A stretch of 64,000 nucleotides of DNA from Hydra vulgaris. Taxonomy: Eukaryota > Cnidaria > Hydrozoa > Anthoathecata > Hydridae. The DNA lies in NCBI RefSeq assembly GCF_038396675.1, contig NC_088934.1, positions 44,996,001 through 45,060,000 on the forward strand, given 5' to 3'. The notes below the pieces were generated by a model. That model was not told the DNA's origin. It saw nothing but the letters and a program-made list of their open reading frames with translations, and did not search any database. Positions 33,780 to 55,646 of the stretch are shown here, piece by piece (the stretch's first letter is position 1; every line of letters starts with the position of its first letter). Position numbers and translations under genes: made by a program.

Positions 33780-35967
33780 ATGTCTGTTCCATCGCCACTA
33801 TCTCACACCCATCGTCAGTTGGAAAAGCAAAATATTGCTCAGTTGACGATGAAGTTTAAAGAATACACTGACCAAGTGAGACAAATGAGAGACCATTGCA
33901 AAAAAACTGAAAACAACGTATTTCTTTCTCACATTGCAGCATTAGATAATGAGATCAAAGATTTGCAGAGCATCTACGAAAGAGAGCTAGAGTCAGTCAG
34001 AGGTCAACTTGATGCTTGCATTGCAGAAAGGAATCAGTTGCATTTAGATGCAAGCAAATATGGTGCTCTTTCTAAAGAATTACAGGAAAAGTATGATTTT
34101 AAATAAAAATTAATCAATAAAATTACTAAAGCTTAAGTATTTAAATTGTTGCAATTTTTGCTTATTTTTACTAATTGTTGTGTATTGATATTGTTAGATA
34201 TAGCGATGAGAAGACAACTCGCACCAAACTAGAAAATGCATTAGCCGACGCCCACCGAGTTCTAAGCGAAAAAGATTTACTCATTAAAGAACTTCGAATA
34301 TCGATTGCACAACATCAAAATGCTCATTTAGATACAGCTAAAGAACGAGATGAACTACAAAGTACGCTCACTACATTGCGAGTTACGTGTGAAGGAGAAA
34401 CTAAAATGCGCATTGATTTAGAAGCTTATGTTCAAAAGCTAACTGAGCAAATAAACTTCGAGCGTGACATTCATGAAAAAGTAATTTTTTCAAAATTCAA
34501 AATAACTAGATTATATTTATATATGCTACTTTACATATGTGGATACATTCACACACGCACACAAACATGTATATATTATTTAGCAAGTAAACTCTGCTAA
34601 ACAACAACATATTTTTGTAGGTTTGAGTTTTCGCATGTCTTAAGAATACCTTTACTCACATATATTTAAAATATATTTAAGGACATTATTGATCTAAGAA
34701 ATCGCAATGCGGCAGCTGAACGAACTATTGAAATTGCTGACCAGAAACTTAGAGAGCACGATCTTGTTGATGAAAAACTCCAACAACAAATTGAAAATAT
34801 TAAAAGGCAAACAACATACGATTTTGTTCAATACCAAGAAGCTTCTGAGAATTCCTATCAATTACAGGTAAATAAATTTTCGAAAGTTGTTCAAACCTAT
34901 TATAATAGTAACGTTATACTTAGAAGAAACGTAGTAGTAACGTTACTTTTCAAAATATTTAGAATTTTTCCGATACATTTTTAAGTTATTTAAATTTATG
35001 AATTGTCACGAACTTTTTTTTCAGCTACAAGAACATAAAAACCGAATGGCAAAAGAAACACAAGCACTTGCACAACAAAAAGAGGAAAATATTCATTTGA
35101 AAGCAATTATTGAAGAAATGAATGCAAAAATATATAAACTGGACGGAAAAGTAATTATTAAGTTTCATTTAAATTCAAAATGTTTATATAATAAGATGAA
35201 AAGAACGCATTCGTCTTTTTTTAATTTCATCATTTTTATTTTATCCATTTTATTCTTTAACATATTTTTACTTTTATTGTTTGTTATTTTTATTTGTAAG
35301 GCTTTTTTTTGGTCTGCATAGGTTTCTTCTTACCATGAACAAAATACAATTCTAATTCACACACTTGAAGTTGAACGTCGTGCTGCTGCTGCAACATGTC
35401 ACGAGCTTGAAAAGAAACTTCAAGAACTCCAAGAACATTACAACACCAAAGTCCGAGAGCTAAACATTGTTAGCAGTGTCAACATTCCAATCGACTTAGA
35501 ACTTGAATCATTATCACAATTAATAGAAGCTGAAGCAAAACGATTAGATGTTGCTTTATCTAACCCCTCAAGTGAGCTTATTTCTACTGTACGTGGAGAA
35601 CTGGTGTCAAACCGAAGTCACTACGTACACAACGCTAGTCCCCGTAAAGCATCATCAAATGCTCCTTTAAAAAGACAAAAGTCACCTGCAGGTAATTTGA
35701 TAAACTTAACTTGTGCATATATATATATATATATATATATATATATATATATATATATATATATATATATATATATATATATATATATATATATATATAT
35801 ATATATATATTTATAACTTTTTTCATTTAGCATTGGTAGATACTACTACAGAACTACCGCCTTTAGCAATGCCTAAATATACAACAACAAACCTTCCTTT
35901 GATAAACGACGGAAAAGTTCGCAACTACCCAAGCTATTCCAATAGAAACTACTACATTGAAAAATAA
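33780..35967 (+). CDS. Nematocilin-type intermediate filament protein, copy 1 (six exons, 470 aa)
   Basis: Exons: 33780-34090, 34198-34480, 34682-34867, 35025-35150, 35322-35691, 35831-35967. All introns are GT-AG and all joins keep frame. The protein is a coiled-coil rod (about residues 15-377) with a short head. The rod ends ELESLSQLIEAEAKRL, the counterpart of the IF consensus EIxxYRxLLExExxRL. The rod is about 355-360 residues, lamin length, longer than vertebrate cytoplasmic IF rods. The 90-residue tail has LKRQKSP, perhaps a decayed nuclear signal. It lacks a lamin-tail domain and CaaX and ends NYYIEK. Known biology: nematocilins are Hydra lamin-derived IF proteins in the cnidocil of nematocytes. 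The match rests on rod type, missing tail domain and paralogue pair. A TA array fills intron 5. Which named paralogue (A or B) it is cannot be told. Confidence 0.82.
35716..35811. repeat. (TA)n array in intron 5 of copy 1
   Basis: About 95 bases of TA between the donor at 35692 and the acceptor at 35829-35830, so nearly the entire 139-base intron is microsatellite. The intron of copy 3 at the same place has none. Confidence 0.95.
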
Positions 35968-53271: not shown

Positions 53272-55646
53272 ATGTCTGTTCCATCACCACTATCTCACAC
53301 CCACCGTCAGTTGGAAAAGCAAAATATTGCTCAGTTGACAATGAAGTTTAAAGAATATACTGACCAAGTAAGACAGATGAGAGAGCACTGTAAAAAAACT
53401 GAAAACAACGTATTTCTTTCTCACATTGCAGCATTAGATAATGAGATCAAAGATTTGCAGAGCATCTACGAAAGAGAGCTAGAGTCAGTCAGAGGTCAAC
53501 TTGATGCTTGCATCGCAGAAAGGAATCAGTTGCATTTAGATGCAAGCAAATATGGTGCTCTTTCCAAAGAATTCCAGGACAAGTATGTATAAGTATATAA
53601 TATAGTATAAATATACTATTTAAATAAAAATAATCTGTTCGAAAGCAATTAAATTAGTTTTAAAATTAGTTTGTTTTGTCCACATTTTAAAATATTTTGT
53701 TTTATTTAATTTTTTTGAATTAAATTATACAAATTATATTGGTTATGATACCTTTTAGCATTTGCCAAAACAATTGAATTTTGTTAAAATTTTGTTAAAA
53801 CAAGTGAACTTTGTCAAATATTCAAATTTATCTGATATTTTTAAAATTTATTTTTAATGTCTTTATTAATAGGTATAACGAAGAAAAAACAACACGTACC
53901 AAACTCGAAAACGCTTTAGCCGATGCACATCGTGTACTTACCGAAAAAGATGCCCTTCTGCAAGAACTCCATATATCGATTGCCCAGCACCAAAATGCAC
54001 ATTTAGATACGGCTAAAGAACGAGACGAACTTCAAAGTCAAAACACAGCATTAAAAGTTACTTGCGATAGTGAATCTAAAATGCGTATTGATTTAGAAGC
54101 TTATGTTCAAAAGCTGACGGAGCAAATTAATTTCGAACGTGAAATTCACGAAAAGGTAACAATTCTAACAGTTTCTTTTGAAAATAAATACAAAATATAA
54201 CTTAAAACAACATAATATAAAAAAAAAAAAATAGGATAAATATTCATAATAACATAATGTAACTGAATGTATAATAACTAATGTAATTAAATAAAAAATT
54301 TGAATATGAAATTGTTTATTAATTTAATCGATAAAAACAAATTTAATTTTAAGGGTATGCTTTTGTTTTAAGGATGTTATTGATCTGAGAAATCGCAATG
54401 CCGCTGCTGAGCGAACAATCGAAATTGCAGACCAGAAGCTTCGAGAGCACGATCTGGTTGATGAAAAGCTTCAACAACAAATTGAAAATATCCGACGACA
54501 AACGACATACGATTTCATTCAGTATCAAGAGGCTTCAGAGAACTCATATCAGTTACAGGTAAATATGGCATTTCTTCTTTTTTTAACGAGACTTTAAAAT
54601 CAAAAAAAAAAAAAAAAAGAAAAAAAATTTAAAAAATCTTTAATATTTCAAAAAAAAATAATATTTAACACTTTAAAAACGTTATTCATTGTTTAGCTAC
54701 AAGAACACAAAAACCGCATGGCAAAAGAAACTCAAGCTCTTACCCAACAAAAAGAGGAAAACATTCATTTGAAAGCAATTATTGAAGAAATGAATGCTAA
54801 AATTTACAAACTGGACGGAAAGGTAATTACTTTTATTTTTTTTTATTTTTAAATTGTTTATATAATAAGATGAATAAAGATGCATTTGTCTTTTTTAACC
54901 TCATCATTTTTATTTCATCCATTTTATTTTTTTAATACTTAGTTTTACTTTTGTTTAGTTTGTTATTTTTATTTCATAAAGCTTTTTTTGTTCTGTATAG
55001 GTTTCTTCTTATCATGAACAAAATACAATTCTTATTCACACGCTTGAAGTTGAACGTCGCGCTGCTGCTGCAACATGTCACGAGCTTGAAAAGAAACTTC
55101 AAGAACTCCAAGAACATTACAACACTAAAGTCCGAGAGTTAAACATTGTTAGCAGTGTCAACATTCCAATCGACTTAGAACTTGAATCATTATCACAATT
55201 AATAGAAGCTGAAGCAAAACGATTAGATGTTGCTTTATCCAACCCCTCAAGTGATCTAATTTCAACTGTACGTGGAGAGTTGGTGTCAAACCGAAGTCAT
55301 TACGTGCATAACGCTAGCCCCCGAAAAGCTTCATCAAACGCTCCTCTTAAAAGGCAAAAGTCTCCTGCAGGTAAATGTGACAACTTTTAAAACTTTTACA
55401 TAAATTAAATACTTTGTATATTGATACTTTTTTGATTGTCTATTATTAAATAGTGCAACGACTTACTACTTTTGAATCAAACGCTTTTTTTATTTTTATT
55501 TTAAAGCATTGGTAGATACAACCACGGAACTTCCTCCACTTATTAATCCTCTACCTAAATATACAACGAACCTACCATCAATAAACGATATAAAGAGCCG
55601 TAACTATCCAAGTTATTCCAATCGAAACTTTTATATTGAAAAATGA
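53272..55646 (+). CDS. Nematocilin-type intermediate filament protein, copy 3 (six exons, 471 aa)
   Basis: Exons: 53272-53582, 53873-54155, 54373-54558, 54697-54822, 55001-55370, 55507-55646, all with GT-AG introns. Exon lengths 1-5 (311, 283, 186, 126, 370) and phases equal those of copy 1. Head MSVPSPLSHTHRQLEKQN leads into a continuous heptad rod to about residue 377, ending ELESLSQLIEAEAKRL. The tail is short and ends NRNFYIEK, without a lamin-tail domain or CaaX. Protein differences from copy 1 are few in exons 1, 3, 4 and 5, more in exon 2, and largest in exon 6 (LPPLINPLPKYTTNL against LPPLAMPKYTTTNL). The role is inferred from nematocilin: filament core of the nematocyte cnidocil. It could heteropolymerise with copy 1, given the near-identical rods. 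Confidence 0.83.

Follow-up and report, generated by a model that had tools for sequence, protein, structure and literature searches.

A tandem pair of nematocilin-type genes in Hydra vulgaris with mosaic divergence and a pseudogene between the copies

Gene models and encoded proteins

The stretch of Hydra vulgaris DNA analyzed here (the window, 64,000 nucleotides) corresponds to contig C15:44996001-45060000 of a genome of 911,502,276 bases in 15 contigs, all of which were covered by the genome searches reported below. On its forward strand we found an array of two intact genes of nematocilin type, here called A and B, and a pseudogene lying between them. Gene A (33780-35967, +) has six coding exons (33780-34090, 34198-34480, 34682-34867, 35025-35150, 35322-35691, and 35831-35967) and encodes 470 amino acids. 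Gene B (53272-55646, +) has six as well (53272-53582, 53873-54155, 54373-54558, 54697-54822, 55001-55370, and 55507-55646) and encodes 471. Both models were derived from splice sites, intron phases, and the open frame. GT-AG borders were found in 10/10 introns, and the phases are 2,0,0,0,1 in each gene. A first-pass annotation of the sequence had described two six-exon genes with equal exon lengths and phases; this holds for the phases and for exons 1-5 (311, 283, 186, 126, and 370 nucleotides in both genes) but not for exon 6, which measures 137 nucleotides in A and 140 in B. An assembly of a Hydra vulgaris AEP haplotype is described as 15 gapless chromosomes of 912 Mb (PMC12220107). If the genome used here is that assembly, collapsed or falsely split copies are unlikely.

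The two proteins are identical at 440 of 469 aligned residues (440 of 472 alignment columns), i.e., 94%. In Pfam, their sole match at E up to 0.001 is Filament (PF00038, cut-off 40 bits), with 100.1 bits for A and 96.6 bits for B. The lamin-tail domain (PF00932) gave no match in either protein, and the C-termini, YYIEK in A and FYIEK in B, carry no CaaX motif. Both marks of a nuclear lamin, the immunoglobulin (Ig) domain of the lamin tail and the C-terminal CaaX, went undetected in A and B, as had been stated before. A search of solved structures returned vimentin (E 1.5e-8) and human lamin A/C (4.7e-8); a profile made from A, B, and a third gene (C, see below) retrieved the same relatives and keratin. 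Query residues 6-269 align to residues 24-283 of human lamin A/C without a large step, and 47 query residues stand opposite 5 of vimentin at one place, which indicates a coil 1B of lamin length with its 42 extra residues. The earlier proposal of a lamin-length rod is thereby confirmed. A simple heptad score gave no clear segmentation of the rod. Comparison of A with B by blastn yielded E-values of 9.3e-145 for exon 1 and 3.9e-163 for exon 5, and exon 1 of A matched the pseudogene at 2.7e-88; together with the outcome of the whole-genome searches, these values exclude chance resemblance.

Divergence between A and B

The two genes are alike to very different degrees along their length. Divergence at silent sites (dS, by NG86) is 0.21, 1.39, 1.69, 0.64, 0.30, and 2.25 for exons 1-6, a roughly tenfold spread in which exons 2, 3, and 6 are near saturation (dS 1.4-2.3). 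Fourfold sites differ in the same exons at 4/31, 19/29, 10/17, 4/10, 11/56, and 10/16 positions, and the window range seen at such sites was reached in 24 of 20000 permutations. The codon tests used the 434 degenerate codons encoding the same amino acid in both genes, 35 of the 469 aligned codons being dropped. Differences were found at 116/434 and are heterogeneous across exons (chi-square 41.4, p 8e-8); the longest run of identical codons, codons 41-80, was equalled in 3 of 20000 permutations. A two-state hidden Markov model (HMM) assigned low divergence to codons 2-97 (9 of 93 differ) and 277-386 (12 of 109), and high divergence to codons 98-275 (64 of 156) and 388-472 (31 of 76). None of 300 permutations gave as good a fit. 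The 32 differing columns of the protein alignment are distributed likewise, with 1 in codons 1-97, 20 in 98-275, 1 in 276-386, and 10 past 386. Over all exons, dN/dS of A against B is 0.058 (NG86).

Introns 1, 2, 3, and 5 of A and B resemble each other at the level of shuffled sequence (z 0.9, -1.2, -0.7, and 0.4), while intron 4, which sits inside the second low-divergence segment, reaches z 13.5 and is about 83-85% identical. We therefore delimited two candidate conversion tracts on the forward strand. Tract 1, placed by the HMM, covers codons 2-97 within exon 1 (A 33783-34070, partner B 53275-53562). Tract 2, placed by the HMM and the intron 4 alignment, covers codons 277-386 (A 35073-35573, partner B 54745-55252); because it starts in exon 4, spans intron 4, and stops in exon 5, it is read as the product of gene conversion at the DNA level. 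Based on these sequence comparisons, the A/B pair does not seem to be simply recent, and parts of it were apparently copied over one another. We infer gene conversion in two tracts, one at each end of the rod. No title on gene conversion in nematocilin genes was found in the literature searched, which was mostly open-access. It may be guessed that the rod ends were kept alike for co-assembly; protein identity in these parts would also be explained by protein-level selection alone.

Structure and descent of the pseudogene

The pseudogene (42377-43553, +) was delimited by blastn, a three-way alignment, and a list of lesions. It consists of the remains of exon 1, intron 1, the 5' part of exon 2, the 3' part of exon 4, part of intron 4, and the 5' part of exon 5. 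Its 5' flank (41403-42376, +) is homologous, in blocks, to B 49682-50277 and 52815-53271; as this homology reaches back to 41403, the duplicated unit was at least 2.15 kb long. When B 49863-50277 and B 52817-53060 were used as genome-wide queries, neither found anything but B and the pseudogene. The first-pass annotation had placed a decayed copy between the intact same-strand genes, and the lesions leave no doubt about this. In the frame of B there are six stops (codons 13, 76, 142, 144, 368, and 385), and frameshifting changes are found among the insertions and deletions (+2, +36, -4, +1, -2, +1, -1, -7, and -9). Exon 3 has been lost in a deletion that begins in exon 2 and finishes in exon 4 (B 53998-54757). 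No homology extends past B 55291, a position in exon 5, and there is no exon 6; with its homology cut short in this way, the copy may never have been functional. The AG directly before the start codon of B is GG in the pseudogene.

B and the pseudogene share a state that differs from A at 132 sites in the 5' flank, 38 in intron 1, 27 in exon 2, 9 in exon 1, and 3 in exon 5. The corresponding numbers are 14, 0, 0, 3, and 6 for agreement of A and the pseudogene against B, and 33, 7, 15, 24, and 21 for agreement of A and B against the pseudogene. Because agreement between B and the pseudogene dominates in the 5' flank, intron 1, and exon 2, the three-way alignment demonstrates, at the level of sequence, that the pseudogene descends from the B lineage. 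Exons 1 and 5 differ from exon 2 in the proportion of B-pseudogene to A-B sites (Fisher test, p 0.0023 and 7.5e-5, respectively). In intron 4 the three copies are about equidistant, with 5 sites linking A and the pseudogene, 7 linking B and the pseudogene, and 6 linking A and B, all small numbers. Between B and the pseudogene we measured distances of 0.202 (flank), 0.152 (intron 1), and 0.097 (exon 1). Since exon 1 is no more distant than non-coding DNA, exon 1 of B was probably not replaced, which makes B the likelier donor; conversion of exon 1 with B as donor and A as recipient is thus the more likely direction. Changes private to the pseudogene, summed over exons 1, 2, 4, and 5, fall on the three codon positions 28, 13, and 27 times, and appear to reflect mostly unconstrained decay.

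Proposed history and alternative explanations

We consider it highly probable that the array represents an old tandem pair of nematocilin genes, two tracts of which were later converted, and that a copy of the B lineage decayed to the pseudogene. A lamin-derived intermediate-filament gene would have lost its lamin-tail domain and CaaX. A and B would stem from an old tandem duplication, after which silent sites outside the tracts, most introns, and most flanks would have diverged to saturation, with purifying selection (dN/dS about 0.06) keeping the proteins 94% identical. Later, gene conversion at the DNA level, acting between the linked copies, would have replaced the segments that encode the two ends of the rod. 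A later duplication in the B lineage would have produced the copy that now has no 3' end, and its decay would have left the pseudogene.

Several observations weigh against this history or parts of it. Values of dS above 1 are past accurate estimation. Tract 1 lies within an exon with non-homologous flanks, and strong constraint on silent sites would be a possible reading of this tract taken alone. Exon 5 slightly favors agreement of the pseudogene with A (6 sites) over agreement with B (3 sites), and the history of tract 2 may therefore be read in more than one order. For the comparisons with the pseudogene, intron 4 offers 79 sites and exon 4 offers 64. Sites common to A and B also stem from decay of the pseudogene, and therefore only the shortage of B-pseudogene sites is telling in the comparison of exons. 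Second codon positions are low among the private changes (13/68), and the pseudogene may have been constrained or functional for a time. Finally, vimentin outranks lamin A/C in both structure searches.

One alternative would be a simple recent duplication, with nothing more than faster silent-site evolution in exons 2, 3, and 6. The 94% identity of the proteins would fit such an origin, and PMC2687796, citing the original paper, describes the duplication as recent. We regard it as very unlikely, given that introns 1, 2, 3, and 5 are at shuffle level next to an intron 4 that is about 83-85% identical, that dS varies about tenfold among exons, and that the pseudogene, a later copy, is far nearer to B than A is in the flank, intron 1, and exon 2. 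Conversion would also be superfluous if purifying selection on RNA or regulatory elements had preserved the silent sites of exons 1 and 5 together with intron 4. Intermediate filaments are most conserved at their rod ends, which counts for such constraint, as does the position of tract 1 within a single exon. Tract 2 is harder to explain in this way, as it begins inside exon 4, spans an intron, and stops inside exon 5; moreover, the copies of intron 4 are about equidistant, rather than showing slow change in A and B with rapid change in the pseudogene, although the numbers are small. Constraint as the sole cause is, in our judgment, improbable.

Two further mechanisms would involve exchange of another kind. 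Conversion templated by complementary DNA, from a reverse-transcribed messenger, would account for a tract 1 confined to exon 1; with intron 4 lying inside tract 2, it is scarcely credible. Alternatively, A or B may be a chimera formed by unequal crossing-over between older copies, and the dead third copy in the array indicates that duplications happen here. Two separated young segments within one gene would need several such exchanges, for which conversion is the simpler explanation, and we give the chimera little credence.

If the pair is indeed old with converted ends, dates and trees obtained from whole proteins would mislead. The nematocilin family of Hydra would then be older than the two recent copies in print and, with its third gene, larger. 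Nematocilin is cited in PMC12464826 as a gene whose gain accompanied the origin of the medusozoan trigger hair. The birth and death of the family suggested by the first-pass annotation is incomplete as an account: the dead copy is a duplicate of the B lineage that may never have been functional, A and B seem to evolve in concert through gene conversion, and the third gene lies elsewhere. Nematocilins A and B themselves are already known; what is added here is the proposed two-tract conversion, the pseudogene of the B lineage, gene C, and a common upstream block.

Upstream regions and repeats

Local alignment revealed a block upstream of A (33291-33473, +) that is common with a block upstream of B (52817-52996, +); the latter is largely common with the pseudogene as well. 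A TATA-like word, TATTTAAAG, is found at 33423 in A and at 52946 in B. The alignment of the two blocks scores 66, while 300 dinucleotide shuffles gave 21.0 +/- 3.0 with a maximum of 37 (0/300 as high). Blastn detected no A-B homology 5' of the start codon, and global alignment of the 5' flanks gave z 1.6. A genome search with the B block returned B and the pseudogene and one with the A block returned A alone, A and B not being mutually found at that sensitivity. The block is a putative promoter. GTAAG occurs at 33539 in A and 53052 in B, and an AG before the start codon ends at 33764 in A and 53268 in B; these signals would fit either an intron in the 5' leader or the addition of a spliced leader. 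Spliced leaders are in use in Hydra, according to a statement in PMC12220107.

Block borders and a genome search identified 2.5 kb upstream of B (50278-52814, no strand assigned) that are absent at the corresponding place of the pseudogene and contain a dispersed repeat of about 300 bp. The search with this segment gave at least 42 matches (best 40 of 1000 candidates scored), and those outside the window all fall within query positions 1119-1531. Between the pseudogene and B lie an inverted repeat (44201-44543 with 47869-48260, 86%) and a direct repeat (45016-45238 with 47640-47862, 98%), both perhaps transposon debris. Elsewhere in the window, two 451-bp copies with 99% identity lie in inverted orientation (15346-15796 and 16251-16701) and may belong to a young element of the fold-back or terminal-inverted-repeat type. 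In a Pfam scan of 10 frames of the window, 3/10 had any match; these are remains of transposases of Tc1/mariner type (26830-27189, 56694-57218, and 60296-60544), with matches to HTH_Tnp_Tc3_2, Transposase_1, and, weakly and below cut-off, the Mos1 helix-turn-helix (HTH) domain.

A third gene outside the array

A Filament search followed by reading of 50 kb of sequence led to a third intact gene of nematocilin type, gene C (contig C2:30451927-30438648, -), with seven coding exons and 507 amino acids. Its product is identical to A at 216 of 469 aligned residues (46%, a figure that applies to B as well). Gene C has the first five intron phases of A and B (2,0,0,0,1), exons 2-4 of the same lengths (283, 186, and 126 nucleotides), and thus the 62-codon exon 3; like A and B, it has no intron at the rod end and carries the tail motif RGEL. 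Unlike them, it is unlinked to the array, has seven coding exons, and ends in a C-terminal tail of its own. Pfam finds Filament alone in the protein, with no match to a lamin-tail or Ig domain. The presence of this intact gene on another contig means that the family is not confined to the array.

Genome searches were run exon by exon, with only the best candidates scored. With B as the query, 21 exon-size matches were obtained at E up to 1, of which 16 lie in the array and 5 in gene C; with C as the query there were 19, of which 12 lie in the array and 7 in gene C itself. No further gene of nematocilin type appeared in the searches with B and C, in which strongly diverged relatives could be missed. 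A 762-residue open frame at C14:24065689-24066918, which passes the Filament cut-off together with its neighbors, possibly belongs to another long coiled-coil protein. More speculatively, and with considerable doubt, one may imagine a nematocilin system of three subunits. The rod ends of A and B, through which dimers join end to end, would be kept alike by conversion, whereas their coil 1B and tail would diverge; C, undescribed so far, would co-assemble with A and B in the cnidocil filament or take their place in another type of nematocyte.

Relation to lamin and to described nematocilins

The lamin gene of the same genome was located on contig C13 via the Filament family (rod exons C13:35552042-35569053), and a genome search with its rod matched only the five exons of this gene. 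Its four rod introns coincide with those of A and B in aligned residue and in phase (2,0,0,0), and lamin matches A and B in the lengths of exon 2 (283 nucleotides) and exon 4 (126 nucleotides). In contrast, lamin carries a further intron, at the rod end, with no counterpart in A and B, and its exon 3 comprises 58 codons as against 62. Protein A and lamin are identical at 79 of 369 aligned residues (83 of 369 in another alignment). From the matching intron positions and phases and the exon lengths, the rod of A and B derives from a lamin-type gene, as is reported for nematocilin. A whole-genome search with PF00932 gave 0 matches, the lamin gene's own tail included; domains split by introns can escape such a search, and its outcome carries no weight. 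Pattern and splice-frame searches for lamin tail exons, covering about 36 kb on the 3' side of the rod exons, revealed none that was convincing.

A and B very probably correspond to the known nematocilins A and B of Hydra vulgaris. The identity proposed by the first-pass annotation is well supported by the predicted features: the lamin-length rod, the lack of a detected tail, the lamin-type introns, and the finding that no other pair of such identity exists among the genome-wide matches. Their role, taken from the literature, would be to build the stiff central filament of the trigger cilium of nematocytes. Nematocilin is named as the stiff core of the cnidocil in passages of PMC12464826 and PMC2687796, and in Hydractinia, Nematocilin A is a marker of mature cnidocytes (PMC11067881).

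On the extent of the wider family the literature disagrees. It is restricted to hydrozoans or medusozoans according to PMC2687796 and PMC12464826. Kollmar (2015; PMC4448529) places nematocilin relatives across eumetazoans, including Nematostella, with an Ig domain and a nematocilin tail domain after the rod. Nematocilins in that sense have the metazoan intermediate-filament rod in common with A and B, but they also have the Ig domain behind it, and Pfam detected neither an Ig nor a lamin-tail domain in any of the proteins A, B, and C. In the absence of a detected Ig domain, the three genes are classed as Hydra nematocilins only.

With the Hydra nematocilins no contradiction was found. The Hydra genome holds two paralogous nematocilin sequences according to PMC2687796. 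Like A and B, these are two close paralogues with a rod and intron pattern of lamin type and with no lamin tail. Hwang et al. reportedly described them in 2008 as two paralogues that derive from lamin rod exons and have a replaced C-terminus. Their duplication has been reported as recent; the silent sites and introns of the genes analyzed here do not bear this out, and point instead to an older pair.

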